Translations under genes and position numbers: made by a program
Part shown: positions 8,651-64,000 of the stretch, piece after piece
How the letters are laid out: the number at the start of each line of letters is the position of its first letter
Position numbering within the stretch: position 1 is the stretch's first letter
NCBI GenBank assembly: GCA_964036295.1
Contig: OZ038465.1
Span: 186,001 to 250,000 of the forward strand
Direction: 5' to 3'
DNA: 64,000 bases
Origin: Plumapathes pennacea
Taxonomy: Eukaryota > Cnidaria > Anthozoa > Antipatharia > Myriopathidae
Notes under the pieces: generated by a model
The model's input: the letters and a program-made list of their open reading frames with translations, nothing else
Database searches by the model: none
Told to the model about the DNA's origin: nothing

Positions 8651-10942
<2,292 letters not shown>

Positions 10943-11752: not shown

Positions 11753-11771
11753 CTTGTAACTCGATCACTTC

Positions 11772-11853
11772 TAGCCTGAGAAAACAGACGTCTCTCATCG
11801 CGCGCTCGATCCAAACCGAGCGCGCGATGAGAGACGTCTGTTTTCTCAGGCTA
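11772..11853. mobile_element. Perfect 82-bp hairpin element inside the Helitron, with 9-bp target duplication
   Basis: Two 37-base arms, starting TAGCCTGAGAAAACAGACG and ending CGTCTGTTTTCTCAGGCTA, are exact reverse complements around the 8-base loop ATCCAAAC. The flanks are identical 9-mers GATCACTTC at 11763-11771 and 11854-11862. The other Helitron copies (for example near 36,845, 42,840 and 56,680) have a single GATCACTTC in the same context, so they show the empty site. A 9-bp duplication fits Mutator-like MITEs (inference). Confidence 0.85.
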
Positions 11854-16331: not shown

Positions 16332-16524
16332 AGCTGGTAAAACTTGAAAGCTATCAAAAAATGACGAACAAGAAAAACGGAGGAGCAATCAAAATTAACG
16401 TTCAGGAACAACCTCGCTCGCACGTCATGACACGTTGTTACGAGTTACGGCGTCACAATCTCACAGCCTCGTCTGCATACCCCTAAATCTCGCATCAGAT
16501 GCTCATTTGCTTTATTTCCCATAT

Positions 16525-21003: not shown

Positions 21004-21351
21004 AAAAACACTCATATCCATTAGTATAACGCCTGGACTGTGTTTTCTGAGGCTAGCGAAGTGAACGGAAGAGTCATATAACATTAAAATGCTACGCTCG
21101 AAACACGTGAAGCGTTTCAAAACACCATACCTTCAAACTCTCGATACATCTCCAGATCCGCTTGATCACGCTATGGTGATGCTTGCTCCAGTACTCCGTA
21201 CAGCCTGCCTGTTTACTACAGAAATCGCAAATAAACTTGATCTTTGGTGTTTTAGTTGTCCTACACGCCATGTTGTTTTGGATTAGTAACCGCGCTCGTA
21301 CACAAGTAGGCCCCAGGGGAGGAGGAGAGGGTCAGTTTTAGTCAGGCGTTC

Positions 21352-21479
21352 CCATGGTAACAGCATGGATGGTGAGTTGCTCATTGAATAAGAAAAGAAG
21401 GAATTGACGAGCGATTGCCCGGGGTAATTCCGATGAAAATTAATAAATGAGCAACTCACCATCCATGCTGTCATCATGG
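21352..21479. repeat. 34-bp inverted repeat with 60-base loop upstream of the giant gene
   Basis: CCATGGTAACAGCATGGATG... on the left is mirrored by ...CATCCATGCTGTCATCATGG on the right, with three mismatches in 34 positions and a perfect 24-bp core (AGCATGGATGGTGAGTTGCT plus CATT). It lies about 310 bp upstream of the first coding ATG of the large gene. It may be a small foldback element or a structured promoter feature. The remaining upstream DNA (21,480-21,786) shows a TATAAATAT at 21,758 but no firm promoter. Confidence 0.65.
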
Positions 21480-21786: not shown

Positions 21787-24700
21787 ATGGGTAGTGTGGT
21801 TTCTGGTCAGGTCAAGGATAGGCACTTGAATCGACAGGAGAAGACAGGGAATGTTTCACTGTCGGGTGAGGAATTATTCTGTGTAATGCGTTGAAGATTT
21901 GTCTCTGCCCGTCCGGCATGTTTATGTAAACAATTCAAGTTATCATATTATTTATGCTGTCCGGATCGATTTCTCCTCGACAGATCCTGTGGTGGTTTGC
22001 GTATCAGAAAACGGTTTCACACCTTGGAAGGTATCCGTTGCTGTCGGACAGGTATAAAATGTAGCAAATGTGCACGACGTAAATAATGTGATTAATGCAT
22101 GAGTGACGACTTAAACCCCGACCTCCCCCACCCCGGGGCTATGTGGGCCGGGATTTGATAAAACCCCAGGGCAACTTTCAAACTTCAAAACCTAAGCTAT
22201 GCCCCCACCCCTGGGGCCTTGGAGGTTACTGTACTCGTATTATGATTGTAAATTTTCACTTTAATCATGTCTTCAATTTGAACTTGAACAGGGCCTCAGT
22301 GTACAGTTTCCTGGCTGAGCTTGTTCCTCTGCAAATCCTGGTCAGCCTGGGGACTGAAATTTACCACTCACTCCAAATTGGCCTCCATGCCCTTGGGCAT
22401 CGTTTTATGTCAAATCCCCCTCAATGCCCCTCTAATCCCCACATCGTCCCATGCATAATAGTTTCAACACCCTATTGTTGAAGCAATTTAAGATTGATTT
22501 TGACAACTGTTGAACTGATGAATTATGAAACCAATGTGAAAATTTTAGATGGGATGTACCTATCCCTGAGTCATAAATGACATGTTTGCAATAATTGATT
22601 TATAAATTAATAATATTATTACAATAATATTTATCATTTAAATATTGACAGAACGCAGCTGTCAAATTGAATAATTAATCAATGTTCACTAAAGCAATAA
22701 ACCGTTTGAAGCATGTCTTTCCTGCTGAAAATAAATAAATCAGTTGGCCAACTTTAATATTATATCTATATTATATTATACCTGCATGCAGCTGCACAAA
22801 ATAATAAAAATAAAAATACTAAGCAATAATACAACGTACTGGAGCTGACCCTACAGTGTAGCTTTTCTCCTCCACCAGAATGGATTTATTACTTTTTCTT
22901 TGTTTTTCTTTACAACTTGGGGTGGTCTAGCTAGCACCTGATATGTCCAAATTGCCCGTGCAGGCCTACAATGTATGACTTGTGTGATACACCAGAAAAT
23001 TGAAATGATTTATGCAAGGCATGCACAAAAATCCTGCAAGGAAATTTGCCAGGATCCTACAAGGAAATTTGCCAGGATCCTGCAAGGAAATTTGCCAGGA
23101 TCTTGCAAGGAAATTTACAAGGATCCTACAAGGATCCTGCAAGGATCCTTGAGGATCCTGACCCAGGATCCTTGCAAGGATCCTACCAGGATCCTTGCAA
23201 GGATTTTCACCAGGGTTGTTGCATGACTATACATTGACTACAGTGCCCCTCCCATCAACTAAACAACTCACCTCGTTTGTCCCTTAAAATTCAGAATTTG
23301 AAAAAAAAAGCACTCTGGGCCCTATTAGAGGAAATTCAATATTATTTAGCAATTGAGGTAACTGTATGTATACTATAACCTGTAACAAAACTTTGGAAGC
23401 AAATGTAACCCTAACCTTTGGAAGCAAATGTAGCCAATATATTAATTCTACCTAAATATTGTTAGTTATTTTGGAATGCAAGAATGAAGTAAGGCTCTTA
23501 TTGGCATTAATATTACTCACATGGAATTTTATGTTAGACCTGACTCAACTTGGTGCTCGATTACATTCAAATAAATGTTCTTCAATCATAGCATTTAATG
23601 GTCAGCAAATTTATGTCATTCCCGTTTACAGCAAGTTTATTGGGAATGGAGTGGTGAACTTTCTTCAGCTGTGGAATACAATGTGCAACAGGTGAGCTGC
23701 ATCAGCACCTAGGAGCATGTTCTACTCCCCCTACAGAATAAGACTTCCCTTGGTTCCAGTGGTTTGCTAGCTTCTCCTTGCAGTGTTAATTAGAAATGAC
23801 CCCAATTATGTAGAGTGGCGAGCATAAAGTGAGACAAAACCTTAGGTAGCAGGTGGCAGTTCGATCACACTGTACCAATAGATTTGATTTCAGAAGTAAA
23901 AAATATTGATAGTACTCTCGAGAAATAGTTTTTGGACTGTGTCAGCATGCGCAGTCCAACTCTAACCCATCCACCCTACCATAACTCACCAATCTATGGT
24001 GTCAAAACAGGAAATTCTATATTACATAAGGGTTAGGTAGTGCCAATATTCTCTGTAAGTTATGGGAAAAAAGGACAGACATAAGAGTGTGTCAAGTTAG
24101 TGTACACATCAGTTAATGGTTCTGTATATATAATGTGCACAGGTTGTTCACAATAAGCATGGCACAGTGCCTGTTCCAGGAGGATATGACAGTGGGCAGA
24201 TGACAGCACAGAGTTCCTTTTGTGTGAGGTTTGGCCAGGCTGGTCTGTATTATTTTATCAGGTATGACCTAAGCAGATTATTTACAGAACATTAAGTATG
24301 CTGTGTTTTCTTAACTACCTTCTATAAAAACAAACTACTAACTACAGGTTAGTGTCCAACATCATTGCATTATCTTTCTACCAATAACAGTTCCAGATTG
24401 CCCACTAACAACAGCCTGGTGGTACATGTGATGCAGAGACCAGCAGTTCAAGTTAAGGTTGTTTAAAACTCATGCTTACAGTACATTGATGGAATTATAT
24501 TATCATTATTATTATTACATTATCATTATTATTATTATTATTATATTATCTCTATATAATAATATGCTAAGCAACTGCTGGCCCGGCCGGCTCATGTGTG
24601 TGTGTGTGTGTGTGTAACGCTCTTTCACAAGTCTCCTAATTCCATATATGGACTGGTAATAAGATAATTTCTGATGCAACAAATGCTTGCATACTCGTTA

Positions 24701-25040
24701 GTCATAATTAAGCAAGCCAGAAATATTCTTGACCGTTGCCTTTCAAAGTGAAGGACGCGACTACTGCAGGTGAGAATTCTGTTTGAGTTTAGAAAGAGAA
24801 TTTCAACAGTCAGGTGACTAGATGGCCACATCTTCGAAAAACAGGGAGATTTTTATGTCGATCAATCGGTGGTTCAACAAGTCAAATATGGCCAAGTGGT
24901 ATATAAGACACAGAAGTTTGTATTTTGATGCTGTAAACTGTGTTTCAGATAAACACAATGGAATTCAAAAAGGTAAAAAGAGAGAAAACATTAGGAAAAA
25001 AAAGAAATCTGATCACCATATTTTGCGGGGCTCCCACTAG

Positions 25041-25104
<64 letters not shown>

Positions 25105-25124
25105 CATTATTATTATATTATCAG

Positions 25125-25191
<67 letters not shown>

Positions 25192-28100
25192 TACTATGAA
25201 TATGGTACCTTTGTCATATTTCAGACTTTTAGTGTCCGGCTAAAAGCCATGTTGGGCCTTACCTGTTTATGTGTCACAAGGCCACAATACCAAATGCAGT
25301 TCTGTTTATTTTGCAGATAACTGAACATGCTTTTGTGCCAAATTTTGTTGAAGTCTTACAAGAGCAGCTGGTGAGATGGCAGTGGGACAACTGTGAAGTG
25401 TCTTATACTTTACAAGAAGTAGAGTAAGTTCAATGAAGTATTATTCTCAAGGAAACAGGAACAGCACAGCTTTTTACATGCCTGTCTCTACTTGTGTTCA
25501 GGTACTGCTTCAAACATGGAGGACTTGTTCCCATAGCAACCTGGTCAGTATATAATAATTATACTCTAGTAGTAATCAGAGATTAGTCAGGTGCATTTGA
25601 CTTCTCTTTGCTTGGAGTTGTTTTTGTTCTAAAATGCTTTTCCCTATAACGATCTCCAAAAGTTCGTGGGTTTCGTCTGAAATCGGAAGTGAGCAGCGCA
25701 AAGACCGTGCGGTCCGGGTTTCTTTCGTTCTTTTTATTTTATTTTAATTCTTTGAAGATCTATGAAAATTGTAAGACATGGTCAAATGTGATTTATACCT
25801 TTGTCGGAAGAGTTGCACACGAGAGTTTCACAAATCGACCATCCTGTGGCTTGCGATTGAATCACCGTGATACCTATGTCTCCACAAAGCCGTATATTTC
25901 TTCCAGATAAGTATCTGGAACATCAGTAAAGTGTCGGTTGCATATTGAGTATATTTTCATCAACGTAGAAACTGAAATATGGCAATCACGAGTCGAGTTA
26001 CATTTTTCTGTGGATTTCTTGCTGTCATGCTGCCCTTATTATCCAGATATTGGCTTCTTTTACTGAAAAGTAGGTGTCTTTGCCTTGATAGATCTCAGTG
26101 TGATCATTCAGAGCCACTCGTGCGACACAGAGCGCTATAGTAATTATTCAAAATGGCGCAGATTTTGCACATCGCCCGACTGACCGTCCACCCACCCAAA
26201 AACTCTCGATTCTTTGCGCTGGCTGAAAGCATGTGACAGGTATCCCATCGACCCCATGGAACCCACACCAGTTGAGATTAGGGTTACATTCTCCTTCGTC
26301 GAATGCAATAATTGCATTATTGTAATTATTGTAATTGTAATTATTACCTAAATATTTTCTATAAATAATTATATAAATAATTATATAATTATTATACACT
26401 GTTCAATGTTTAACAAAAAGATTGGGCTTGATATTGGTTGCTTCCCCTGACCTGCATTCACCTGAAACTAATGTATAGTTAAAGTTGCTTTTACATTTTG
26501 TGTGACCTGCGATCTATTAAAACACATGGGGAGCCAAGAACTGCACTTCCAAGTAGTTTTGAACCACCTTTCCAGGTGTTCATAGATCTGGCTGTATAAA
26601 ATGAATTAAAGCCTTATAACCCGAACCCTAACCACTTCCTTTCATCTAAAATGCTATTTTAGCCATTGAAATCAGCACATGCTATTTTGTACTGATGCGA
26701 GAAAGGACTGTAAAATGAAGTCCAAAATTCTCCATCCTTTGTGTGTGGTGAATTTTTCTACACACTATGTCTGTGTATTTGTACTTGCAGCTTTAAAGTA
26801 ACAGAAACTTCTGGAACATATGAGAAAATATTTAGGTAAGGAAGCAAAACAGAGGAAACAGGTTTTCCATTTTCATGTTGGTACATGTGCGTATCACAAT
26901 GCATGTTATAATATTATTACTTTGAAACATTGTTAGAGGAACATACATTGATTTTTTGCAGAGATAAACATAAAAGCTATGAATAAAGTGTACTGAACAG
27001 CCTACAGATAAATGGTACTGTTGATATACGAGTATAACTGAGAACCAAAGCATTATTATTTACAGATTATGATCGTTTCATGTTGGGACTCTATGGACTA
27101 TAACCTGGTTTACATAACAGACCCTTCTTGTTTACGATCTATTTTCATGTGTTAGAAGCTCCAACCAAAAAAGAACGTATATACTTACTCTACTTTAAAT
27201 AGTTAAAATTTTGCCATCGGCAGTATTATTTAGATTCCATTGTGCCCATTCTGATGCAAAATCCTCCTTTGGACAATTATTATTTGTGCAAGCATTAGGG
27301 AATGCTATGAATCTAACTAGTCTCTTTTTTTGGACTGCCAACTGTGATAGATAGCACTGACTTTGTGTCGTTGGTTGACCCTTTTCAGGAAAACTGGTCT
27401 GTACTACTTTCTTGCTGAAGGCACTAAATGTGGACAAAGCTTGCACCATCTCTCTGTCATCAAAGTCTTGCAGAGACACAGGTAAGTCCTACAGAATAAT
27501 ATGTTCTAAGAACAAGAGATATATGTGTACTAAATTGCTTGTTATTGATGTTTTAGAAGCAAGGGTTGTAGTAGCAATACTTAGCTAGTACGTAGTGTAA
27601 CAGCAGTAGCAGTAGTACTACTACTACTAAGTAGAAGATTGTTTGTTGTTCGTGTCAGGGAGTTCCATGTGCAGTTGACGGATAATGGTGGTATTGAACC
27701 AACTTTTATCAAAGCTCACGTGAAGGATCGAGTGTGGCTTGATTGCTCTACTTACAAGGTATTATAATGGTGCTTGTAATAATAATGGTGATTATATTGC
27801 TGGTGACAATACTAATATTTACTGCAATAGCGACATTAATATTTTTATTTCTACCCTTCCTCTGTGATTGGCTGACAGAAAACCGACAAGCTCGACACTG
27901 TTTTACTACGAACTGAAAGTGGCTCTACTGTGGTAAGTAGTGGCCTTAGAACTGTTGCAAAGTACAGTAAATATTCACACAACATTGATAATTTGTAGTG
28001 CATGTATACAGCATATTCATATTTGCTGATGTTCATTTACAGGTTTCCAGTGCTCTCTCCAGTCCATCACAATCTAGGTGAGCTGCTTGCTAGAAGATGA

Positions 28101-31100
28101 GATCAAGCAGCAGTGCTGCAAGCAATGTCAGTTTCACATTTAATTATCTGTCCACAGAATTGATACAACTGTGAAATATTTAACATTTTATTCTATAGAC
28201 ATGAGTGTTTTACTGGAAAATATACCGTGCGTAAAATCCATACGAAACTACATCCGGGACCCGAGTGTCGTATTTTCCATATCCTCACTAGTGAGGATAT
28301 CGTTGGCATCATTTTCCGCTTTTGCACGGTTGTTTGTGCAATTTCTCGTAAAACACTCGTGTCTAATATAATAAAAAGAAAATTACACGGCGGCTTGAAG
28401 ATATGGATTTTATTTTCTCGTGGTAAAAACAATATTTTACTCACTCGCGAAGCGCTCGTTCGTAAAATATTGTTCTTACCACTCGAAAATAAAATTCATA
28501 TCTTCGCGCCGCCGCGTAATATCCTCTATTTATTAAATATTAAACATAATATTTAATATTTAATATTTAACATACTTGTGAAACTTACAGCCGGGATGGG
28601 TATTTACATGGAGGTAAACAAACACACTGGCCAAGCAGGTGAAGAAAGGAACAAAAGAGTGCGAAAAAGTGTAGTCTGTGTAAACAATCCAAAGACTTCA
28701 GTTTCTTGTCATACAAGAATTTGGTTAACGCGGGTCCTGACCCTAACACTACTTCCAAGTGCTGCCCCTCCCCCTCCCCGTAAGAAGAAACATTCGAAGT
28801 ATTCTCAGAAAATAATACACGACCGCGTATCTTCACGGACATGTTTGTGTGACAGTTATGTGTCATGAGTGACGCAACCACAGTTTAACCTGACTGTGCC
28901 CTATGTGACATCTGTGACAGATTCTCATTTTTATTGTGTGACAGTTATGTGTCCTGAGTGATGCAACCACAGTTTAACCTGACTGTGATGTATGTGACAT
29001 CTGTGACAGGTTCTTATTTTTATTGTGTGACAGGTGTGTATCTCTGGTGTCCCACTGCTTCACTGAGCCAGGAATCTATTTCTACACATACAAGTTTACT
29101 GACTCGACATCAAGGCGAGGCTGCGTAATGGTGACTCCCAGGAGCAGGGAACACGTCATAGAGATGACGAAAGATGGCGTCAACCCAGGCAAGTGTCTTA
29201 CAAGTTTGGTTTTGGTATTAAGACGATGCTATGGAAAACACGATGTTCTGTTATTTAGCAGTGATGTTTATGTGATGGAAGAAGTTTCATGCTGAAAACA
29301 TATTAGTTACTCTGTTCCTACACCTCTTGGTTTGAAGGACTATGTGATGTAATACACGTGTTGGTTTGAAGGACTATGTGATGTTACAATCTTGGTTCGA
29401 AGGACTATGTGATGTTACACGTGTTGGTTTGCAGGTTTGGGTTGTGTTGCCACAGGTGATCGGGTCTGGTGGACTGACAACTCAAATGCCCCTATGTTCT
29501 GTCTGACAGAGGTACGGCGCCTTTCACTGATTTTTACCCTCAACTGTGTTTAGTATAATCTCGCAACAGGCCCTGCAGCTGCTTCCGGAGTCCACTGAGT
29601 CATAGACAAGGCTCTCGCTAGCGGGACATTATATCAACTAAAGAAGGCATCGAAAGTTTAAAATATTGGTTCCTTTTAAGGTCAAAATTAGCTTTTAGTA
29701 CCTCTTGAGGGTGAAAACAAAAGGTCCGGTTCGGTCCGCAACAAAATGCTGTTTCAGGAGATTGGCAAATGTTTGCCGCAAATTAAACATTTTGTCGGGA
29801 ATTGGGAAACACGAAAAATTTACTGGGAAACCAAAAATAATATTGGGACATCACAGAACATATTCAGGACATCTGGGAGGCTTTTCCTTCTGGCTGAATG
29901 TGGTTGAAAAAGAAATTCATGCAGCGAAAACTTCTAAAGTTTTCGGAAGGCCGTTCTTTCCTTTTCCATAGGAGAAATTGGAGGCACCACTCCTGTATTT
30001 ACGAAATGTCCGGTACACAGATGCAATGGTTGCGATAAGACATTTTATTAATCGTTAGGATGTTCTATTGAAAGCCGCTTTGTATTCTTTAGAAGGAAGG
30101 AAATGACATTTTAGTTAGACAAATTTCAAAAATCTTCCGCTCACAAATTACTCATTATTAGTTTTTGACGCAGTGGGCCAGGCTTTCAGTGAGCCGCACC
30201 CTCGGAGGATGATAGTCAACTGACCCAGTTTTCGAGAAGGACTAATCTTTACGACTATAGCAGTTAATTGTATCACTAAACTGGCAAAATGTGCGGTTTT
30301 GCAAAAAGTTGGTTTGAACGTTTACATTTGTTCAAAATAACCCTCAAAATGCACGAAATGGTGTTCAGAGAATCTAGATTTTAAAATCTTGCGGGGGCGC
30401 AGTCTGTTTATCCGGATAAGGCCTGGGATTAGGGCCCTGGATTCTGTACCGTAGTTCTCACCGCTAAAGTAGGTAGTGATGTCTTTTGGCAGAATTTACT
30501 GTCATAAATTATCTTGCTACGGACACAGAAGTTTCTATGATTGTTTGTGAGGTTTTTCATATTCGATTATTTTTGCTATAGAGCCCCAGGTTCCTCGTAG
30601 TCAGAGTTGTGTTCAAAGTTGATTGAACATTCTGCATGGAAGAAGACTGCACCACATTATACGCTCTCCATAGTACACTGCCTTATCATAAATAGCTATT
30701 TTGAAATCAACAGGATACTCGCACATCGGCCTCTCCAGAAATGCCGGTCAGGAGAAATTTCAGCCATTTACAAGGTATCTGTCGTTTGCGCAAGCCTATT
30801 ATATATTATTTGCTAAAGAGAAAGTTGCCGCAATTATCTGTCAAAGAATATTATCTCCGAAATTACGGTTCGAATCGTTATCAAGTGTGCGTTCGCCGTA
30901 ATATTTCTTTGTTTTGGACCTTCACGATAGCTGCAGTAAACTCGTTTTAGGTTGTCCATGTTTGAGGCATCTGGACAAACAGGAGCAGGTCAGACAAGTG
31001 GGACTCATGACATGTATGTTTGACAATACTGGATTGTACACATACCGCGTGCACAACGGGAGTCAAGAGGAACAGACTTCTATGGACATGATCAGCTCCG

Positions 31101-31123
31101 TCGTAGTGCAGTCGACTGGACGA
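21787..31123 (+). CDS. Giant gene exons 1-15: N-terminus and cupredoxin-like domains 1-4
   Basis: Exons: 21787-21865, 21984-22051, 23632-23691, 24143-24261, 24391-24457, 25317-25423, 25502-25543, 26791-26835, 27389-27481, 27659-27758, 27879-27932, 28043-28077, 29034-29188, 29435-29511, 30951-31123. Each domain repeats the same plan: a start like VCVSENGFTPWKVSVAVGQ, a W-x-W strand (VYWEW, VRWQWD, VWLDC, VWWTD), and a final F-x-x-x-G-[L/I]-Y-x-[F/Y] strand (FGQAGLYYF, RKTGLYYF, TEPGIYFY, DNTGLYTY). That is a plastocyanin-type Greek-key signature, but the C-x-n-H-x-n-M copper ligand loop is absent, so copper binding is unlikely. The intron after exon 13 starts GC (AG|GCAAGT). Exon 14 ends in phase 0 while exon 15 reads in phase 1, so this join is not resolved. 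Confidence 0.82.
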
Positions 31124-37100: not shown

Positions 37101-37307
37101 TTTTATGATTTCGCCTTGCCCGTGCCTGTTCCCTTCTCTTTTGAAGACGAGCTTCGCGAGACCGTTCTGTTTCAAGTTTTCCAGTTTTCAAATTCATTTT
37201 CGTGAAACCAGTTACGTACAATTGTTGCGTCTTTTAGAAACACTGGCGGAGACGCTAATCGATGATTATTACGTCATTGCCTTAGGCACCTGGCCTAAAA
37301 AGTTGTA

Positions 37308-37340
<33 letters not shown>

Positions 37341-43300: not shown

Positions 43301-43811
43301 TCTTTTCCCAACACCGATTTATTAACTCCAACTAGAGTTACAAATTGCCAACTCTAGAACTAACTGCAAAACTCTAATGAAAAGGGTGTGCTTCGCCTTA
43401 AGTAGTGATGCTTACGTAAATGACACTTTTGGCCGTCAATCATTACTACGAGCTAATGATAGACTAGCTTACGTCAGAACTTAACTACGAAGCAGCAGAT
43501 GTTCCATAACATACGCACTAAGGAAAAACCTTAATTTTAGATTTGTAAACTAGTTACGCGTAAGCGGAATAAGCTAGATTCAAGAACAGTGGAAAAATAA
43601 ATTACGGGCTACTATCCAGTGTAAAAATTATAAAGTCTTAAGCAGTAAAGACCCATAAAAGTTAACCCATAAATATAACCCATAAAAGTTATAGGAAAAT
43701 AGTGGAAATCTCTTCCGTAACATTGGTTAAACAACGATAGGAACTGGAATCTCCGAATGATGCGATACTACTGCATTAGCGTTGTGATTATTTCCCTCGC
43801 TTCGTTCGGGG

Positions 43812-43892
<81 letters not shown>

Positions 43893-43919
43893 TTAATATT
43901 AATAATAATAATAATAATG

Positions 43920-43954
<35 letters not shown>

Positions 43955-55900: not shown

Positions 55901-58900
55901 AACTAGAAATACGATAATCGCAGATACCCCTCGCTCTGCCATTGATGGGACTTTTACTTTGGTACTCCCAACAAGAGTAGCCTTTGTTTTACCGAAATGT
56001 TGACTCAATCTTTTCTTCGAAGTCAAGTGCTACACGCAAAGGAAGGAGAAAAAGAATGGTGTGTGTTATACTTTTGCGTTGAAAAAAGAGTCGATTGCCT
56101 GACGAAGTACGTATTTCCCACGGTCGGCACGTCAAATTAATTCATACAGTCTGCCAAGCACGTTCTCAAAATTTAATACTCAAATTTTGAAGTTGGTCGG
56201 CCGTCGTAGTACGGAAAAAAAGGAACACTGATTTTCCAATTTTGAATTCATAGGCAGTACAATTAAATAGGCTTCCTGTGCGATTTGTTTTTACTCTGGA
56301 CTGCATGCTCCAGACTCAGGCATGCATATATAACGAGTTCAAATTGTTTTGTATGTGAACCCGCTCAAAACAACATGATTTCTCCCAGAATCAAAGCAAA
56401 ACTTGAACGGTTTACTTCAAATTATACACGGGCTTCAGACCTAGTCGTACTTCTAAGGGCTTGTGAACGATTCTCGCTGCAATGACCGCATGTTAGATTA
56501 CAGCATTTGTTACATTTTTAGTCTTCAGAAAAATAAGACATCTGACTAAATTATTCAAGAGACTCCAAGTTCCGATTGCTCTGAGCGAATAAGGTAGCCG
56601 AAACTGGCGACAGAAGCGTATTAAAACAATACTTCGAGGGAAAATGATCAGCATACAGATTCTAATACATTCTTGAAGTGATCGAATTACAAGATACGGG
56701 TACACGGAGACACTGATTTTCCAATTTTGAATTCATAGGCAGTACAATTAAATAGGCTTCTTGTGCGATTTTTTTTTTACTCTGGCATGCATATTTAATG
56801 AACTCGAATTGTTTTGTATGTGAACAAAACAGCATGTTTTCTCCCAGAATCAAAGCAAAACATGAACGGTTTACTTCAAATTATACACGGGCTTCAGACC
56901 TAGTCATACTTCAAAGGGCTTGTGAACGATTCTCGCTGCAATCACCGCGTGTCAGATTACACAGCATTTTAGTCTTGAATGAAAAAATAAGACATCTAAC
57001 TAAATCATTCAAGACTCTAAGTTCCGATTGCTCTGAGCGAATACGGTAGCCGAAACTGGCGACAGAAGAGTATTAAAACAATACTTCGAGGGGAAATGAT
57101 CAGCATGCAGATTCTAATACATTCTTGAAGAGGGATAGAATATATTTGTCACGGTGATTGTTCGATTTCCACTGACTGACCTTTGTTGCTTGTCCTTTCT
57201 GAATAACTATCTGAATTTAACACAAAACGGCGTCTGAATCTCCCGATTTGCTTTCAGGCGCTGTTCTCTTTGCGGAGTCGTTTCTTCGGCACGCTTCGTG
57301 CTGTCGGTCATAACATGATTTTCTTCTTTTCTCTAGACGAACTTGGCGCTGTTTGATCGTTTCATGATTTCGCCTTGCTCGTGCCTGTTCCCTTCTCTTT
57401 TGAAGACGAGCTTCGCGAGACCGTTCTGTTTCAAATTTTCTAGTTTTCAAATTCATTTTCGTGAACGCAGTTGCATAGAATATTGTTGCTTCGTTCAAAT
57501 CTTTCTTAAAAACACTGGCGGAGACGCTAGTCGATAATCGACAATGATTACGTAATTGCCTTATTAGGACATTGCCTTAGGCACCTGGCCTAAAAAGGTC
57601 ACATTACACACACACACACGAACACTAAATTTCGAGATGGCGACACGCTTGGAGTCTTCAAATTAATGCATTAGCGTCGTGATTATTTCCCTCGCTTTGT
57701 TCGGGGATTAATGCATTAGCGTCGTGGTTATTTCCCTCGCTTTGTTCGGGGATAAATATACATAAATCATTATTACATTAATTGCATTATGTGCTTTACA
57801 TTACATACACTAGGTACACTACATATAAAAGATCGAAGATCGAAAATACCTTTATGGTCACTCCGGAGTTTCATTTAGCGCATTCGTCCATGACAAACTT
57901 TGGATCATAACTTTTTTGGCTTTTATGCGATTCCTATAGAACTTTGAGAAGCCTTTGCAGCTATCATTCAGCAGTAATATGATTAAATTCGATTTAACTT
58001 GGGAAAACGTTTTAGTGATATTATAGCTTAAGTGGGCACTACGTTTTGAACAAAATCGCACCCAGTAAAAAATTTTGCTGGTATATTTTTGTTAAATTTC
58101 TGGAATCAGTTTATATTGACTTAATACATATCTTAACCAAGTTTCAGAAAAATCGTTGGAACAGAAGAGCGGAGGTAATAAAACCATCAAAATTTCGCCA
58201 TGAATTTTCCTTCTGCTCCGACGATTTTGCTGAAACTTGGTTAAGGTATGTATTCTGTTAAATATAAGCTGATTCCAGGAATTTAACAAAAATATACCAA
58301 CAAAATTTTTCACTGGGTCAAAAAGTACTGTCCACTTAAACTATAATATCACTGAAAATATTTTTCTCCAATTAAATCGAATTCAATTATATAATTGATA
58401 TAATTGACTGAATGATAGCTGCAACGTTCCTCAAAATTTTATAGGAATCGCATAAAAGCCAAAAAAGCTATGATCCAAAGTTTGTCATGGACGAGTGCGC
58501 CAAATGAAACTTCGGAGTGACCTTAAGTCATGTCCGCACTTCTGTAACACACTTGATTGGTTTAATGTAAACTCAGTAATTAATGTTTTCGTTTATTTTC
58601 CTAATCCATGTTTAATAGAGCATTCATTAATTCACATCGTAACATTTGTTCCTCAGTTGCGGGTAAAGCTGGCGGGTATCACGTGGTCAAGTGGAGTTCA
58701 GTATTGAAGCCACAGGTAACGTGATCATCTGGCGTTTTTGAGCAATCGACAGCTTGGATCTGCATACTATTCCTATTGAGTCCGTACAATTCTGCGAGAA
58801 ACAATGTTACAGTGACGAAAGAATTGTTTACTGACTTCTTGAAATTTGTTGATTTTGTAGGAAGGGGAGGGGAAAGAAAACGAGCAAAATTAATTAAATT

Positions 58901-60393
58901 TGTGATTGTACTTTTTGGCGCTGATTTGCTGAGGAAACGACATCCGGTCACTTGGAAAGTGTTCGATGTGGACTTTATTGACGGGGTTTCTCACATTGGG
59001 GATTGTTCTAGATTCGAGAGAAGCGTGTGCGCATGAACGAGTGTAGTTTGACTCTTGAAGACTGCTGCGCAGGGACAAGTTATTTCATCGTTGTGGCGGT
59101 GTTTGATTCAGATGGTGTGCTCGTGGCTCGTTCCGACCAGGTTACTGTGCAGACATCCGCTCCTGTTCATAAACCACAACTTCGGCTCAGGTAAATCAAA
59201 TGAAAAAAGTCTACAATATAAAGATTCAGTTAACCCAAACTCGATTGTGTTCACTGCTCTACAATGCTTACCTCTGCAGTAATCGTTTGACATAGGCCAC
59301 ACGTAAACCTTACTATTAATTGGTGTAGCTTATTTGTGTGATAACACCTTATTTTTACCACACGATTTGATCTTAGTTATCCGCCTATTCAATTTACGCA
59401 CAGGCTTTTCTTCTTAGGTCATGCCTGCCGATTAAGAGTATCCTTGAGTGGGACCGCCCAACAACTTTTGGCGATGCTGAAATTCGGTTGTACGAGTTGC
59501 AGGTAATTAGTGACTACCATGTGTATTTTCGCTAGCTTCGCGAAGTTTTAATTCCTCGTTACATTTCATTAGATTGGCGTGGGCTGACCTGGGGCTAATT
59601 CAATAAACATTTAAACGTGTATTTTACAAGTTGGACCATTTTTTCAAACGCCACTAAACGGACTCCAATCGGACAAAAGTTGCAAAACATTACAGATACA
59701 GGTCTCAATTGTATAACTGGAACTGATTTGGTCATGGTATTGGATTAAAGTGTGTTTTGACGTGTCGGGAAATTGGCCCAACTTGCAAAATATGAATTGG
59801 CCCCTGATGTAAAATTATTTCATTTTCACTTAACCTTCATTGGCTTGTTTTACAGCCATCAAGATGTTTAAAGTGAGAACACGTACTGCAATGTGAATTT
59901 GTATGGTAAAGTTATTTTGCTTTATGCCCAGATCAATGGTTGTTTGGTAAGAGATCTGAAAAGCGACTGCACTTCGTTCGAATTTGCCGAAGGCAAACCT
60001 TGTCAAGAGTACGCGTTTGAACTCAGAGTAAGTCTGCTGCACTTCACACGTTACTTATAATTTACTGCTTTGCTGAGTGACTGTGTCAAACACGTGACCA
60101 CTATATAGAGGAACCCGTGCCAGGCGGTTCACACCTTCAGTTGTCAATCAACCGCCGTCCGTGTCGGACGGCTCTTATGGGATCAGATCATTTCGTGAAA
60201 TGGGCTAAAGTTAGGGTTAGGGTTAGAAAAAAGTTTCAGTAGGGACCTGATAATGAGGGAGCGAACAACATGTTTATTAACCTTTTAAGTTAAGTGGAGG
60301 CAGGGTCTTAAAATAGCCTTTACAAACATGGGTACAGTAAATATGGACCAGTTGCACCCGAACAGAGGGAGGCGTGTTGATTTAGATATAAGG

Positions 60394-60441
<48 letters not shown>

Positions 60442-63400
60442 GTAATAATTGCTTTACCAATAAAGTTTTGCTTGTGTAAATGCTTGCACTGATACAGACA
60501 AATAGAATATTTGAATCAGGAGAAATTAAGGCAAAGACCTGTTTTAGAGCTTTTACAACAAAATATTTGTTTCAGGTAATCAGTACCAAAAAAGGCTGCG
60601 ACAGCCAATGGTCAGACTGCCTACAGGTCACGTGTCCTGGTGCAGAGAAGCCTCGGCTGAGACGCATTAACTCGGAGGCGGTGAACTGTATTGCAGTGGC
60701 CTGGGACAAACCCTTGCTGAAAGGCGGGGCCAAAGTACAAAGCTACACTGTAAGTCGTGACAGTGCCTTTGCTTGTCTTATCTATACTGTCTGATGACAC
60801 TATATACTCACACTAGGTTTTCTATCTGAATGACACTTGGTACTTTCTTCGTACACAGGTATACTATCTGAATGACCCTGGGCACGTGATCACAAGTGAC
60901 ATCGTAAAAGGAAGTGAGCAAGCTGTAGTACACGGTCCGTTGCAAAACTTCGTTGAGCAAGACCGATTGTTCAATGTGGATCCGCATGCAGTTTACTTGG
61001 TCCTGTTGCACGTGGAGCTAAGCCGACCTGATCAATGTGCCAGTGTAGACTCACAGCCAATCAGAACAAGGGCAGCTGTACCTCCCGACCCACCAGTGAT
61101 CAGCATCCAACTGGTGGGCTTGCATCAGAGACGCGAAGTGGACAAGACAATCGGCTCTCTGTTACACAGGAGAGACAGGTTATGTCAGAATATCTTCATG
61201 ATTTTATTAATTGTGAGATTGTGACTTCTACGGCTGTAATACTGCAAGCTTGAGTGTTTTACCTTTTGTCAAACCGAGCTACGAAACCATCAAATTTTCA
61301 AACTTGCTTCCCTTTTGAAGGTTGCTCAGGAAATCCCACTTGCTTCACGGTAGCATCGTCGTCAAAGGATCAAAACAGAAGGATGTGGAGGTTTGTATTA
61401 TATAGTTGTTACTCCGTTCTGCCATTAGTAAGCACTAGACTTTAAAATGCGCTAGTTTCAGACTATGGATCTAATCTTAGCAACAACCTTTCAATCGAGA
61501 GTAATTCATCAGCCAGTCGCAGGCTTATAACATGCACTAGTCCTAACGTTCTCGAGCTGTGAGAAACCTTGGGTATTATAATTCCATAAAAGGTGATTTG
61601 GAATGTCATCGTGTTTTCTTTTCGTTGTATAGAATTACTGGCTTTCATGTGTCACAAAGCTCTTTCAATTTGCAAATAATTCTTTAGTTTTGATTGTCCT
61701 ACCTGGCTTTTTGCCAACATAACACAGCCAAGTTGGATTGGCGTAGTTATTCATTTTGCGGCAGAGAAAGTGTTTCCTACTTACGTAATGTATTACTGCT
61801 AGCCATCATAATATGTATCCCCAATGCCTACCCAGTTCCAAGACTGACTATGTCTTTTTTTTCTTTAGATTTCAAAAGTGCTTTCTGTCATTGCGGAATT
61901 GGAGAGCGACCTACAAGAGGCGTTAGAGGCCATCAAAATGTACACGGGTGAGTAGCATTCACACACTACTACTGTAAATGTGCACAACGGTCTCAGGATT
62001 TTAACCGTTCCATTGTTATCTTTTTAACCTTTTAGGAACTGTATCTGCGTTAGTGAGTTGGACGAAACCTAAAGACGACAGAAATGCCGTTGTCACTGGA
62101 TACCAGATTCTCATGAACAGTGAACCACGAGAAAAGCTGTTCGGCAGAAACTCGACCCAGGTTCAATTGCAGGTGAAGCTCGACAGTCGTTGTTAACGTG
62201 CGTTGATATTGGGTATTTATTACACGTTGCTTACCACGTTAATGAAAGTTGACCCTTTTTGCCATCGATATCTAATTGGTAGTTTCGTGATTATTGGTCT
62301 CAAAATATTCTGACAGAAAGTCGAGAAAAAAAAGTGCAGTCTGTGGAGATTGAGCGGGGCTATTCCAGTAAGCCTTCTCCTTTAAACGACTTTTAATTTT
62401 ATTTGCAGGTACCGGCCAGTCAGTTTCAGCAGGTGATCACAGTGCAAACGTTAACGAAACACCCTGTAGGTCCCAGTTCTCCCTCGGACGCAGAAGTGCT
62501 TGATGGATCAGATTTCTTACCTTCAACCTTCTTCTGTTATTTTGATGTTCATGTTCGTGGAGCGAGGTAACGTTGTTCTGTTGATAGATTGTCTATATTA
62601 ATAAGGCAAATCGGCTATTATACCACTAGATCACTCATCTTTGTCTCTTAAATTTGCAGCTGGCCTGATCGTGGTTGTTGCAGCGTTCATGATACTGTTG
62701 CACATGAAGCTTCACTTGGCGAGCACACCAAACCGCTTGCACATCGGGGACTGCTGACCACGAGAATACCGTGCCCAGTGGTTTCAGTTCTTGACCTGTT
62801 CGACACGAATTGGAAACCCCTTACAACAGCCGTGCGTTCCTTCAAACCAACTGCACTGCTGTTTTGGACTAAGTGGTTAGAACCCCAGCCCTGCACTCTC
62901 CAGTATTTGTGTTTTCCTTTTTTTATTATTTCTTCTTCCTTCTGGGTTGTTTATTCGTAATCACCTTTTTTTCTGAATAGTCTCCTATTACTTTGGTTCA
63001 CCAGGTGTCATTCGTCACAGAAACTTATGGATTTCTTCGTGGAATTCTGTGGGCGGTGCTCTGACGAGGTCTGTGTGCGTGTTTGTGTGTGTGTGTGTGT
63101 GTGTGTGGTTTTGTGACTTATTCTTTCGTTGGCCGTTTTGCTGACATACACGTACAGAGCTGGAAAAGTTCCCAAGGTCATGTTTCGTCTCAAAACAACC
63201 AGATCCATAGAGGAATTTTTCTCTTTTGCCTATTTACAGTTCTCTTTTGTTACGTGCTGTGTGAAAAGTCAGGAATCAGGAGCAGATCATTGTCAGTCCG
63301 TCATGGATTTTATCACCCAAAAGGACTGGGTCAGACATGGCAAACTTCTGCATTTGTGCGCCTGCCATTCTGATAGCCAGCGGGTCAAGCCGTTGCGACG

Positions 63401-63981
63401 TGGCGTGAGCATGGTCCCGGATGTAAGCCAGCTTTTCGGTTTAGTGGGCGTGCCCACTGTAGTAATCCTTGATCCGTCAGGTGAGACAAATTGAGTAAAC
63501 AGCAACACGAAACAATTTCTGGCGGAAGAACCCGTCGCCACATCCAATTGAAATTCTCGATCGCAGGTGAAAATTTAATTAAGCTACTTCGTAAAACTGA
63601 CTTATCTAATTCGAAAGAAATATTCTCGCGTGCATTTAAGTGTATACACATGCATGCACATAGCAAATGTACGCAATAGATGTACACAAACGTAACGCTT
63701 CATCTCTCTTGTAGGGCACATTGCATGGCGGGGACGTTGCTGCTCTACAGACTACAACACTTTCCATAGTATCATGTTACACGCTAGAGCCCAGTCTTTG
63801 GGTGAGCAATGCGCAGATGTAGCCTGTGGGCAATGCATTATGGACTGTTTTGAAGGCCGCCTAAAGCGTGTGAGTGAGTGCTCTTCAGACACTCGAACCT
63901 CGAGCAAGTTGTCACAGGGTACACTCACCCTACACACACAATTGCATGGAGGTAAACCAAGGGAAATTCATGTACCTTCAG
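21787..63981 (+). CDS. Giant multidomain gene: seven cupredoxin-like domains, CHB_HEX_C, about 16 FN3 domains, thioredoxin-like domain (3' end outside window)
   Basis: Sixty exons were traced by GT/GC-AG borders. Every exon length agrees with its neighbours' phase except the join of exon 14 to 15. Summed coding length is 10,668 nt, about 3,556 codons, still open at the right edge (donor at 63,982). The ATG at 21787 has a purine at -3, G at +4 and an in-frame stop eight codons upstream. The N-terminus MGSVVSGQ fits an N-myristoylation signal (G2, S6). No signal peptide or membrane segment is seen, so I infer a cytoplasmic or axonemal scaffold, not an extracellular matrix protein. Exons and domains are listed in the block entries that follow. 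I do not recognise an established family with this domain order. Function is unknown. Confidence 0.88.
23030..23215. repeat. GGATCCTGCAAGGAAATTTGCC minisatellite in intron 2
   Basis: About four 22-23-bp units, then a decayed tail of (C)AAGGATCCT palindromes. The unit is partly self-complementary (AAGGATCCTT). The remainder of intron 2 (22,052-23,631) holds nothing else I recognise. Confidence 0.75.
24478..24616. repeat. (ATT)n patches and (TG)n microsatellite in intron 5
   Basis: Interrupted TATTAT/ATTATC runs at 24,495-24,550 and eleven TG units at 24,594-24,616. Confidence 0.75.
25040..25193. repeat. (ATT)n microsatellite in intron 5
   Basis: About fifty TAT/ATT units with few interruptions. 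The poly-Tyr/poly-Ile open frame across it is a repeat artefact. Confidence 0.9.
25544..26790. other. Intron 7 of the giant gene
   Basis: Holds no exon I can join. 26,300-26,400 is an AT palindrome cluster (TAATTATATAATTATTATA type). Confidence 0.4.
28194..28527. mobile_element. Twin-hairpin MITE, copy 1 (intron 12)
   Basis: Two palindromes in series. The first runs from TATAGACATGAGTGTTTTAC to GTAAAACACTCGTGTCTAATATA with centre CCTCACTAGTGAGG. The second runs from ATTACACGGCGGCTTGAAG to CTTCGCGCCGCCGCGTAAT around AATATTTTACTCACTCGCGA. A second copy is at 41726-42060. Confidence 0.85.
28847..29031. repeat. Tandem duplication (two ~92-bp units) ending at the exon 13 acceptor
   Basis: TGTGTGACAGTTATGTGTC ... 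CATCTGTGACAG ... TTTTTATTGTGTGACAG occurs twice. The second copy supplies the acceptor used by exon 13 (GTGTGACAG|GTGTGT); the first copy carries the same acceptor-like sequence 92 bp upstream. Confidence 0.8.
29326..29434. repeat. Three-unit tandem repeat ending at the exon 14 acceptor
   Basis: TTGGTTTGAAGGACTATGTG ATGT[A/T]A units occur three times (29,326, 29,362, 29,391), and a fourth partial TTGGTTTG is completed by CAG to give the splice acceptor at 29,434. Confidence 0.8.
29975..30145 (+). repeat. Dispersed repeat S, copy 1 (intron 14)
   Basis: CGAAATGTCCGGTACACAGATGC, GGATGTTCTATTGAAAGCCG and AAATGACATTTT match the reverse complement of 33,205-33,365. The rest of intron 14 (29,512-30,950) holds short open frames without recognisable content. 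Confidence 0.6.
31703..39188 (+). CDS. Giant gene exons 16-23: cupredoxin-like domains 5-7
   Basis: Exons: 31703-31819, 34813-34925, 35615-35666, 35775-35941, 36064-36142, 37713-37832, 38780-38863, 39035-39188. Domain 5 is the most canonical: VCVTDEGFSPKILNVRPGDQ, VWWYWDKTERLHDITQ, VTHQGTLIEGGFVSG and CQLGVYYF. Its RLH histidine sits where blue-copper proteins hold their first His ligand, but no Cys follows in the last strand. Domain 6 ends KPGVHHFMCTAYIFH, with a Cys near the ligand position. Domain 7 begins VVSVSCDGFNPSAVTVAK and ends VPGTYYVTSVGS. All phases agree. Confidence 0.85.
31939..32187. mobile_element. Hairpin MITE related to the element beside the HUH gene
   Basis: The left end CAATCCCGGTCAAAAGTGTT GGGACACTTAG resembles 758-790 (CAATCCCCGCCAAAACTGTT GAAACACTTAG). 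The right end is GTGTCCCACATACTTTTGACC. The inner pair is a long poly-C tract with CAGTGTTG and CAACATTG with TATGGGGGAGG. A C-run of over 25 bases (from 31,998) may be mis-sized. Confidence 0.65.
32640..32850. mobile_element. Short insertion bounded by 13-bp direct repeats, with perfect 30-bp inverted repeat
   Basis: GTCAAAGAGTATC occurs exactly at 32640-32652 and 32838-32850. Within lies AGTATCAACTAGGTGTTGAT GAGGGTAATG (32647-32676) and its perfect reverse complement (32741-32770). The direct repeats suggest target-primed insertion of a retroposon fragment (inference). The loop carries the ribozyme-like core annotated next. Confidence 0.6.
32685..32717 (+). ncRNA. Candidate minimal type I hammerhead ribozyme
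   Basis: Reads GCT | CTGACGA | A GGGC TAGC GCTC | GAAA CG TC | AGC. CUGANGA, GAAA and the GUC cleavage triplet are all present. GCU/AGC can form stem I, GGGC/GCUC can form stem II (one G-U pair) and C-G a one-pair stem III. One unpaired A before stem II departs from the consensus. Minimal type I hammerheads are known in Penelope-like elements and animal retrozymes (established knowledge). This assignment is mine and untested. Confidence 0.45.
33205..33365 (-). repeat. Dispersed repeat S, copy 2 (intron 16)
   Basis: Inverse copy of 29,975-30,145, sharing CGGCTTTCAATAGAACATCC and GCATCTATGTACTGGACATT. The rest of intron 16 (31,820-34,812) is repeats plus DNA I cannot classify. Confidence 0.6.
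34100..34375 (+). repeat. Family R repeat fragment
   Basis: TGTATGAGTGTTGTAATGAT, AAGGTGTCAAAAGCCAAGTT and TGTGTGATATAGTTCTGGTG match 8,470-8,640 and the reverse of 18,555-18,840. Confidence 0.6.
34486..34584. repeat. Poly-C / poly-G foldback
   Basis: AACCCACCCCCGTC plus a run of about 16 C, then a 40-base AT-rich loop with TATATATATA, then a run of about 17 G and TGGTGGGTT. The arms are complementary. Run lengths are doubtful in any assembly. Confidence 0.65.
36153..37444 (-). mobile_element. Helitron-like element, copy H2 (intron 20)
   Basis: Minus-strand copy with 3' end CTAG at 36153-36156 and the GCGAAGCGAGGG 5' end at 37,425-37,444 (terminal TC altered to AC). It contains the basic coiled-coil ORF remnant (about 36,952-37,197) and a (CA)n tract at 37,309-37,340. 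It lacks the 82-bp hairpin present in H1. Confidence 0.7.
38186..38346. mobile_element. 161-bp palindromic MITE (intron 21)
   Basis: GTAATCGCATGATTTCGAGT on the left mirrors AAATCATGTGATTAC on the right. The inner arms GAGTGCAATTTG and AAAGACCACAAA pair around GAGCGCCGCGCGAG. No TSD identified. Confidence 0.75.
39315..41422 (+). CDS. Giant gene exons 24-28: CHB_HEX_C-type domain and linker
   Basis: Exons: 39315-39364, 39712-39816, 40914-41020, 41187-41201, 41314-41422. The text VHLECDTQQAEIVYTLDGSF, then IVLRHPGLFVVRALAKKEGW and IRSRAY shows the YTLDGS-x-P ... G-x-x-x-V-R-A pattern of the beta-sandwich found at the C-terminus of chitobiases and many cell-surface or flagellar proteins; here it has no enzyme attached. 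Exon 27 is only 15 bp (FEMQ core) and keeps the frame. The linker exon 28 is charged (KSKERSWEGADTESLGLREQ). Confidence 0.8.
39910..40677. mobile_element. 768-bp element with ~57-bp terminal inverted repeats (intron 25)
   Basis: GCGTTGTTAAACAGTGAAAC GAAACAGCGAAACAG on the left is mirrored at 40,620-40,677. Both flanks carry TTTATTGTTT followed by CCG, a probable target duplication of 10 or more bp with a small indel. It contains a nested element at 40178-40344. No ORF. Confidence 0.7.
40178..40344. mobile_element. Nested MITE with GCCTGGTTCACACTA ends
   Basis: Ends GCCTGGTTCACACTA and TAGTGTGAACCAGGC are exact inverted repeats. TTA occurs near both borders (TTAA| and |ATTAG), compatible with a 3-bp PIF/Harbinger-type duplication. 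The body is made of CGACATAA tandem units. Confidence 0.75.
41726..42060. mobile_element. Twin-hairpin MITE, copy 2 (intron 28)
   Basis: Same two serial palindromes as 28194-28527 in the same orientation, roughly 90 percent identical by eye, and located 40 bp left of Helitron H3. Confidence 0.85.
42100..43811 (-). mobile_element. Helitron-like element, copy H3, interrupted (intron 28)
   Basis: 3' end CTAG at 42100-42103; 5' end at 43,738-43,811 (CGCTTCGTTCGGGGA). The body matches H2/H4 to about 43,190, then 540 bp of unrelated DNA (43,190-43,737), then the 5' terminal 70 bp. The 5' end abuts an (AAT)n tract of about 140 bp. Confidence 0.65.
43190..43737. other. Unclassified insertion inside Helitron H3
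   Basis: Sequence absent from H1, H2 and H4, starting near ACTGTAGTTACTTTCTCTCG and containing CGTGATCGATCCGGCCTTTGG. No coding frame or terminal repeat recognised. It could be a captured host fragment or a solo LTR. Confidence 0.4.
43812..43953. repeat. (AAT)n microsatellite next to the Helitron 5' end
   Basis: About 45 AAT units with few interruptions (ATTAATATT, ATG). Poly-Asn and poly-Ile open frames across it are artefacts. Confidence 0.9.
44071..45616 (+). CDS. Giant gene exons 29-32: FN3 domains 1-2
   Basis: Exons: 44071-44196, 44411-44563, 45017-45181, 45520-45616. FN3 pattern residues are visible: NIVLSTTADLSWTRGFQLFL, NGVVYGG, VVSGLTGGKSYHAVLVVYS, then VIIVWPSCP, AAYTVLVNGEQFG and GEDYVICVTAHVEG. 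The V-N-G-x-x-x-G hairpin is the style of FN3 repeats in RIM-binding-type proteins. FN3-2 finishes in the next exon with LLYSNEVQFFLP. Confidence 0.85.
46070..47908 (+). CDS. Giant gene exon 33: end of FN3-2 and acidic repeat linker
   Basis: An 1,839-bp exon, entered in phase 2 completion after ATTAG and left at CAAC|GTAAGT. After the FN3 end and about 110 residues of low-complexity sequence, residues run through about 29 tandem copies of DQQDSMEEKVDHTK (46,435-47,640), then a Cys-poor tail ending QTNDIQQ. The repeats are strongly charged and predicted disordered or helical. They separate the first two FN3 domains from the rest. The frame is kept because all units are multiples of three. Confidence 0.85.
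46435..47640 (+). repeat. Coding minisatellite, 39/42-bp unit, about 29 copies
   Basis: Units GATCAACAGGACTCCATGGA + AGAAAAAGTGGATCACACTAAA, alternating 42-bp (EEKVDHTK, EENVDHTK) and 39-bp (EEVDHTK, EEVEHTK) forms. The phrase QPQEDSIK occurs both before the array and again after unit 25, showing a larger internal duplication. Because neither strand of the unit holds a stop, the minus strand also reads open for about 445 codons, which I treat as an artefact. Confidence 0.93.
48036..55790 (+). CDS. Giant gene exons 34-46: FN3 domains 3-12 and start of 13
   Basis: Exons: 48036-48264, 48535-48612, 48794-48917, 49458-49596, 49876-50405, 50525-50996, 51235-52209, 52537-52748, 52987-53324, 53522-53597, 53875-53991, 54319-54395, 55561-55790. 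FN3 hallmarks recur: P-x-x-P starts (PPEAPSIYVV, PGTPANLRVV, PPTDLRVVSR), the core W (ILGWKRPA, ISLGWKPN, IKVCWDSP, VRVKWRSA, FTVEWNEP) and L-x-P-G/x-x-Y (LAPGSCNNF, LDPGTAYRV, LQPHSMYSV). Introns usually cut within FN3 domains. An insert in exon 39 (SSGHEAVNSGVESGSSSKQE) is Ser-rich. Exon 44 could read through its donor for 45 more codons before a stop; the phase-compatible donor CAG|GTGTGG is preferred. Confidence 0.87.
55903..57752 (-). mobile_element. Helitron-like element, copy H4, internally duplicated (intron 46)
   Basis: 3' end CTAG at 55903-55906. The segment 56,230-56,690 is partly repeated at 56,705-57,120. The 5' terminal 45 bp (ATGCATTAGCGTCGTG...TTCGGGGA) occurs twice in tandem, ending at 57,707 and 57,752. 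The basic coiled-coil ORF remnant is at about 57,217-57,460 on the minus strand. Confidence 0.7.
57856..58522. mobile_element. 667-bp foldback element (intron 46)
   Basis: GGTCACTCCGGAGTTTCATT on the left mirrors AATGAAACTTCGGAGTGACC on the right, and complementarity continues almost to the centre (near 58,175), giving arms of about 320 bp with scattered mismatches. No ORF. Confidence 0.85.
58657..61947 (+). CDS. Giant gene exons 47-54: end of FN3-13, FN3-14, FN3-15 and helical linker
   Basis: Exons: 58657-58715, 59012-59190, 59418-59502, 59932-60027, 60576-60749, 60859-61178, 61321-61390, 61869-61947. Text such as GGYHVVKWSSVLKPQ, CCAGTSYFIVVAVFDSDG, SILEWDRPTTFGDAEI and CIAVAWDKPLLKGGAKVQSY shows FN3 strands. 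After VPPDPPVISI the sequence becomes a charged, probably helical stretch (HQRREVDKTIG..., ISKVLSVIAELESDLQEALE), which could be a coiled-coil contact. Confidence 0.83.
60394..60441. repeat. (ATA)n microsatellite in intron 50
   Basis: About sixteen AAT units. The rest of intron 50 has only a short GGGTTAGGGTTAG motif at 60,214. Confidence 0.9.
62036..63981 (+). CDS. Giant gene exons 55-60: FN3-16 and thioredoxin/redoxin-like domain
   Basis: Exons: 62036-62172, 62409-62566, 62660-62875, 63005-63068, 63240-63480, 63715-63981. After FN3-16 (TVSALVSWTKPKDDRNAVVT), a redoxin-type fold follows: PCPVVSVLDLFDTNWKPLTT, KPTALLFWTKWCHSSQKLMD, LHLCACHSD, then FGLVGVPTVVILDPSGHIAW with the cis-Pro V-P-T. 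The active site is W-C-H-S-S, so the second Cys of CxxC is replaced by Ser; a monothiol or purely structural role is possible. After the fold comes a Cys-rich stretch (CADVACGQCIMDCFEG) and the frame continues past the window through a donor at 63,982. Confidence 0.85.
63075..63110. repeat. (GT)n microsatellite in intron 58
   Basis: GTGTGCGTGTTTGTGTGTGT followed by further GT units. Confidence 0.85.
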
Positions 63982-64000
63982 GTAAGCGTTTGAAATGGTT

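Follow-up and report, generated by a model that had tools for sequence, protein, structure and literature searches.

Several well-described animal proteins share individual features with the gene reported here. Ceruloplasmin and coagulation factors V and VIII, which are secreted six-domain proteins, carry several cupredoxin folds in one chain, and ceruloplasmin binds copper. RIM-binding proteins, which are defined by SH3 domains, are FN3/Ig scaffolds, and titin and FNDC3A contain intracellular FN3 arrays. Members of the Thioredoxin_8 group (PF13905), such as nucleoredoxin and tryparedoxin, have a thioredoxin (Trx) fold with a cis-Pro, and DZANK1 is an intracellular protein with a CHB_HEX_C-like stretch. 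Finally, ephrins are cell-surface ligands whose cupredoxin folds lack a copper site, as described in an analysis confined to monodomain cupredoxins (PMC6485061).

We analyzed a 64,000-nucleotide stretch of the Plumapathes pennacea genome (290 Mb in 24 contigs), positions 186,001-250,000 of contig OZ038465.1, hereafter ‘the window’. Domain searches of the giant protein predicted there and of its orthologues show an old animal gene family of fixed layout, with ~24 predicted beta-sandwich domains (7 cupredoxin, 1 CHB_HEX_C and 16 FN3). An acidic stretch follows FN3 2, and a thioredoxin fold lies close to the C-terminus; this arrangement bears out the domain order proposed in an initial annotation of the window. 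Ceruloplasmin and factors V and VIII are the first Foldseek matches; unlike them, the giant protein has seven repeats, no hydrophobic start, mostly lost ligands and further domain types, and unlike ephrins it combines several domains in one chain and has no signal. The RIM-binding protein 2 Ig-like family (PF25523) is matched at E <= 0.01 in 10/11 orthologues, but RIM-binding proteins lack cupredoxins, and Pfam scans of the window pieces and of 11 orthologues contained no SH3 family. Among PDB sequences, the C-terminal part best matches titin (8e-07) and FNDC3A (0.0056); no kinase or Ig-FN3 super-repeat was seen in the giant protein, and its flanking domains differ from theirs. Its thioredoxin-like domain departs from the Thioredoxin_8 group by a broken WCxxC, and the zinc ribbons and ankyrin repeats of DZANK1, a weak match (E 0.096), were not found in it. 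To our knowledge, none of ceruloplasmin, factor VIII, ephrins, RIM-binding proteins or titin has this layout.

A single gene of 60 exons

Exons were predicted from splice-site and codon scores, curated by hand and later corrected against orthologues. The final model, on the plus strand, comprises 60 exons and 10962 nt with the stop, encodes 3653 aa and spans 21787-64235 (Table 1); the stop codon occupies 64233-64235, and the last 235 bases lie past the window end in adjoining sequence. Position 63981, where the initial annotation had ended the gene, is a possible donor within an open frame and not a terminus. A possible optional intron of 63 nt (63982-64044), whose removal from the last exon would keep the frame, crosses the window end between a strong donor at 63982 and an acceptor just ahead of 64045. 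Fifty-eight introns have GT-AG boundaries and the remaining one GC-AG, with phases consistent at every join. The annotated chain of 60 exons is confirmed, and the single phase mismatch reported with it is absent from the final chain. The exon at 32625-32670 is doubtful: it caused a phase conflict in our own chain, and without it 31703-31819 joins 34813-34925 in phase. Among discarded alternatives, a chain of 136 exons from dynamic programming with a low exon penalty had far too many exons, and a 70-exon chain (higher penalty, self-trained codon scores) was superseded by the curated model. A supposed 51-nt intron at 63330-63380 was reassigned as coding, since it matches HCCCCH of crinoids; once orthologues were known, exon 60859-61113 was extended to 61178 and exon 61321-61390 was added.

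When 11 orthologues were used as tblastn queries against the window and the next 10 kb, all 219 matches overlapped predicted exons on the plus strand, with no match off predicted exons and none in the reversed sequence that served as control. At E <= 0.01, 43/60 exons were matched by at least one orthologue and 25/60 by at least three; the remaining 17/60 are short and are placed by phase, splice signals and alignment position. The weakest are 27879-27932 (best identity 0.17) and 30714-30774 (best identity 0.16). These comparisons, together with the matching phases, confirm the predicted chain as one genuine gene, as annotated, and not a product of chance. Two coral models, P0001 and P0002, end after 3 and 6 FN3 domains, as might be expected if two or more adjacent genes had been wrongly chained together. 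We regard such an error as wholly improbable, however, because phases match throughout the window and nine full-length models from nine bilaterian species hold both halves, and indeed all blocks (9/9), in one protein.

Other features lie upstream of the gene or in its introns. A frame with a CDI domain (PF02234, 72 bits) at 16399-16920 (+) places a p21/p27/Dacapo-type CDK inhibitor directly upstream, adjoined by a CxC5 cysteine cluster associated with KDZ transposases (PF18718, 39 bits) at 15909-16388 (-). At 9830-10102 (-), the C-terminal portion of an ABC transporter ATPase domain (PF00005, 30.6 bits) perhaps represents the final exons of an ABCC-type gene. A dispersed repeat family, present in giant-gene introns and upstream, has direct copies at 36458-37222, 42123-43227 and 55927-57481 and an inverted copy at 11581-12542, with blocks mostly 84-98% alike and some copies 66-69%; a 69-nt tandem repeat at 11363-11638 is distinct from this family.

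Table 1. Predicted features of the giant gene, in window coordinates
Feature	Position	Strand	Basis
Whole gene	21787..64000 within window	+	gene model and orthologues
Exon 1, MGSVVSGQ..., N-myristoylation-type start	21787..21865	+	MGxxxS 12/12; hydropathy
Cupredoxin-like repeat 1 (aa 30-115), exons 2-5	21984..24457	+	profile 3e-21; amicyanin matches
Cupredoxin-like repeat 2 (aa 129-210)	25317..27481	+	profile 2e-17
Cupredoxin-like repeat 3 (aa 229-315); GC donor on last exon	27659..29188	+	profile 5e-14
Cupredoxin-like repeat 4 (aa 330-427)	29150..31123	+	profile 3e-16
Cupredoxin-like repeat 5 (aa 447-528), best preserved; Ser for copper Cys	31703..35666	+	profile 2e-27; Patella fold
Cupredoxin-like repeat 6 (aa 541-616); Cys at copper-Cys position, other ligands missing	35775..37750	+	profile 1e-16
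Cupredoxin-like repeat 7 (aa 644-731)	37750..39188	+	profile 5e-19; plastocyanin matches
CHB_HEX_C / Fn3_assoc beta-sandwich (aa 743-832)	39315..41422	+	19.6 bits; 10/11 orthologues
FN3 1 and 2 (aa 872-1057)	44071..46120	+	FN3 search
Large single exon: end of FN3 2, then acidic stretch	46070..47908	+	predicted disorder, inferred from composition
42-nt repeat KDQQDSMEEKVDHT, 29 in-frame copies	46437..47635	+	repeat analysis
FN3 3 to 15 (aa 1683-3123)	48036..61120	+	13 FN3 matches
Conserved segment between FN3 15 and 16	61100..61947	+	end of exon 60859-61178, exons 61321-61390 and 61869-61947; alignment
FN3 16 (aa 3205-3285)	62036..62566	+	1e-11
Thioredoxin-like domain (aa 3344-3505), WCHSS for WCxxC, cis-Pro GVPT kept	62660..63801	+	profile and alignment
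Start of C-terminal tail, K/R/S-rich by eye	63801..64000	+	ends past window (KKISIDDFVFR)

Seven cupredoxin-like repeats with incomplete copper sites

An iterated profile seeded by repeat 5 detected 6-8 cupredoxin repeats per sequence in the first pass and seven in all 12 sequences after iteration, the number originally claimed for the window protein; shuffled and reversed controls gave no match to this profile at E < 0.01. The Pfam family Cupredoxin_1 scores 20.4 bits in the window protein, under the cut-off of 27, but passes it in two of the three orthologues scanned (P0001 and P0003) and is found at E <= 0.01 in 10/11 orthologues. Plastocyanin, amicyanin or a blue-copper protein accounts for 18 of the 19 PDB sequence matches (E 0.01-0.19). 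Structure prediction agrees with the annotated assignment, as the orthologue from Patella yields a Greek-key cupredoxin fold (repeat 5).

We counted copper ligands at anchored alignment columns in 84 repeats (7 x 12 sequences), with plastocyanin as reference and His-Cys-His-Met as the type-1 ligand set. None of the 84 repeats has all four ligands together. The ligand Cys is kept in two, repeat 6 of the window protein (CTAY; exon 36064-36142) and repeat 6 of Desmophyllum (CTAH, C-x2-H), a cnidarian feature that differs from the bilaterian sequences; both copies lack a Met in the loop and, judged by eye, have Tyr at the first-His position. A Cys lies one position early in 8/84 repeats, and Ser occurs there in 43/84. 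In the alignment of repeat 5 with plastocyanin, the first His is retained in 11/12 copies, whereas Ser replaces the copper Cys in 12/12 and the second His is missing in 12/12; for repeats 5 and 7 together, the first His is kept in 23/24 copies. Because the ligand set is incomplete in every repeat examined, copper binding is unlikely, although repeat 6 of cnidarians may retain a remnant.

The CHB_HEX_C domain, FN3 chain and thioredoxin-like end

CHB_HEX_C falls short of its Pfam cut-off of 22 bits in the window protein (Table 1), exceeds it in two of three orthologues scanned (P0001, 22.6 bits; P0003, 23.3 bits) and, like Fn3_assoc, is found at E <= 0.01 in 10/11 orthologues. The annotation had estimated about 16 FN3 domains; we count 16 in the window protein, 2 + 14 around the acidic stretch, and 15-16 in all nine full-length orthologues. 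The peptide repeated in the acidic exon gives 28 matches to DQQ[DN]S[MI], with a spacing of 13 or 14 aa except in one of 29. The 42-nt unit is present in this species, and the corresponding stretch of the orthologues is acidic yet poorly aligned. The conserved segment ahead of the last FN3 domain, missing from the earlier domain description, is probably helical, judged by eye.

The redoxin fold proposed for the C-terminal end is supported through sequence comparison, by profile and cis-Pro. Thioredoxin_8 scores 27.3 bits in the window protein, barely at the cut-off of 27, and 28.9 bits in the cut-out domain; it is found in 7/7 cut-out C-terminal domains at E <= 1 and in 3/11 whole orthologues at E <= 0.01. 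A profile of the Trx domains retrieved mostly thioredoxins and related reductases from the PDB (best E 0.00015). The active site reads WC[LH][SAP][SA] in 10/10 sequences (WCHSS in the window; WCLAS, WCLAA, WCLPS and WCHSS elsewhere), with the first Cys of the CxxC dithiol retained and the second missing in every one, and the cis-Pro is conserved in 10/10. Cys clusters occur in deuterostome Trx domains (CCCAS and HCCCCH in crinoids, variants in others), and the window protein has HLCACH; the bivalve and annelid sequences have no such cluster in this domain. A metal site at these clusters is possible. In the tail, a pattern search found a conserved motif resembling KKISxxxRPYS near the end of 7/9 full-length bilaterian sequences and KKISIDD alone in the window.

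Taken at face value, the persistence of the first Trx Cys and the cis-Pro, the frequent first His of repeats 5 (11/12) and 7 (23/24 for both), the ligand Cys in repeat 6 of two cnidarians and the deuterostome Cys clusters could indicate an active metal or redox protein, functioning either as a copper buffer or as an oxidant-sensing monothiol thioredoxin. We consider such activity very unlikely, as the ligand Cys is missing in 82/84 repeats, four-ligand repeats number zero and the CxxC is broken in 10/10 sequences.

N-terminus and place in the cell

All 12 sequences begin with MGxxxS, and 8/9 full-length bilaterian sequences begin with MGTGAS[KR]. Each of the 12 starts fits, as a motif match only, the myristoylation pattern MG.{3}[STAGCN]. 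By hydropathy, a crude test for signal peptides, there is no hydrophobic start, as the maximum within the first 40 residues is <=0.63 in 12/12 sequences. The highest 19-residue hydropathy mean of the window protein, 1.75, lies within cupredoxin repeat 5 (aa 517); that of the other sequences is 1.31-1.98, or 2.23 in P0007. The myristoylation-type start that was initially described recurs, without a hydrophobic segment, throughout this set. We infer a lipid-anchored cytoplasmic protein because of the MGxxxS starts, the lack of a hydrophobic start and the RIM-binding protein 2 Ig-like match.

By contrast, chains of FN3, CHB_HEX_C and cupredoxin domains usually occur outside the cell, where high cysteine content is common, and the window protein has 117 Cys compared with 44-89 in orthologues. 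These properties would be accounted for if the protein were secreted or part of a matrix and a wrong first exon had hidden its signal peptide. This explanation has little to recommend it, however, as an MGxxxS start without a hydrophobic segment is present in 12/12 models, including the MGTGAS starts of bivalve, hemichordate and echinoderms.

Orthologues and age

Protein searches found relatives in the corals Oculina and Desmophyllum (models of 1906 and 2107 aa), so orthologues are present in anthozoans, where the annotation had suggested looking. Further relatives come from echinoderms (crinoids Anneissia and Antedon; starfish Asterias and Acanthaster; urchins Lytechinus and Strongylocentrotus), the hemichordate Ptychodera, the bivalve Mya and the annelid Capitella, with shorter related models in Elysia, Patella, Diadema and Mytilus. 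A JGI FN3 protein, P0014 (E 2.5e-19), was discarded as unrelated. In databases the relatives are labelled ‘uncharacterized’, ‘hypothetical’ or ‘unnamed’, or they bear a generic domain name. The statement that the domain order fits no family thus holds for named families but not more widely, since orthologues were already in databases as uncharacterized proteins. Vertebrates, arthropods and nematodes were not represented among the matches listed; two of the searches scored the best 7987 and 7982 candidates by shared words, and because only candidates with the most shared words were scored, these missing matches do not show absence. In an FN3-family search of the genome, the window was absent among the 150 scored of 758 candidates. 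A search of open-access papers gave no study of the giant gene family.

Alignments excluded the isoforms P0008 and P0009. In a midpoint-rooted tree of the N-terminal third (aa 27-1058), in which the window protein and Mya are flagged for long branches, the window protein groups with the corals (100/100), spiralians stand apart from ambulacrarians and 9/9 inner branches are starred. From this distribution, we infer that the gene can be traced to the cnidarian-bilaterian ancestor.

Discussion

We think it reasonably probable that the giant protein is a single-chain intracellular scaffold, a lipid-anchored ruler or linker from the membrane to a cytoskeletal or protein assembly. First, myristoylation of the N-terminal Gly would tether the cupredoxin end to a membrane. 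Second, the FN3 chain and the acidic stretch would span a gap of tens of nanometres. Finally, the thioredoxin-like end, with its one Cys kept, could dock on a partner together with the tail. In such a chain, the cupredoxin and thioredoxin folds would serve as structural or binding modules instead of carrying electrons or exchanging disulfides. Points against a scaffold are the Cys richness, the ligand Cys in cnidarian repeat 6, the early Cys in 8/84 repeats and the deuterostome Trx Cys clusters.

More specifically, the myristoyl group could carry the protein into cilia or the sperm flagellum, where it would join the membrane of the cilium to its axoneme or basal body. The ciliary cargo proteins NPHP3 and cystin have similar MG...S starts. 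The Foldseek list includes mouse sperm and Chlamydomonas central-apparatus chains (9ijj, 7sqc and 7som); however, beta-sandwich arrays match one another generally, and extracellular ones appear in the same list. An RFX X-box-like palindrome, GTTCCCATGGTAAC, with one mismatch to the X-box consensus, lies at 21348-21361, 425 bases upstream of the ATG, but the pattern occurs 11 times in the window compared with 4.8 expected, and this single upstream site therefore proves little. The one PDB sequence match of the CHB_HEX_C domain is the weak one to DZANK1 (E 0.096), which is not significant; DZANK1 itself was observed at the basal body, according to one report (PMC4617706). The DZANK1 match, the axonemal Foldseek chains and the X-box-like site each point weakly to cilia, and we hold a ciliary or flagellar role to be tentative and rather unlikely.

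Returning to the scaffold, the wider picture, which we judge about evenly balanced between right and wrong, is of an undescribed family of cnidarian-bilaterian age in which the cupredoxin fold would have been brought into the cytoplasm, copper and redox chemistry would have been lost from the seven cupredoxins and the thioredoxin, and the product would be a myristoyl-anchored giant linker, possibly from membrane to axoneme in cilia or sperm. A protein of ~3,600 residues whose layout has been kept from cnidarians to sea urchins must have a function that is hard to replace in these animals, yet it is nameless. The family would be a further case, beside ephrins, in which the cupredoxin fold is reused without copper, here apparently inside the cell, and it is well suited to localisation and knock-down work in sea urchin, Nematostella or a bivalve.
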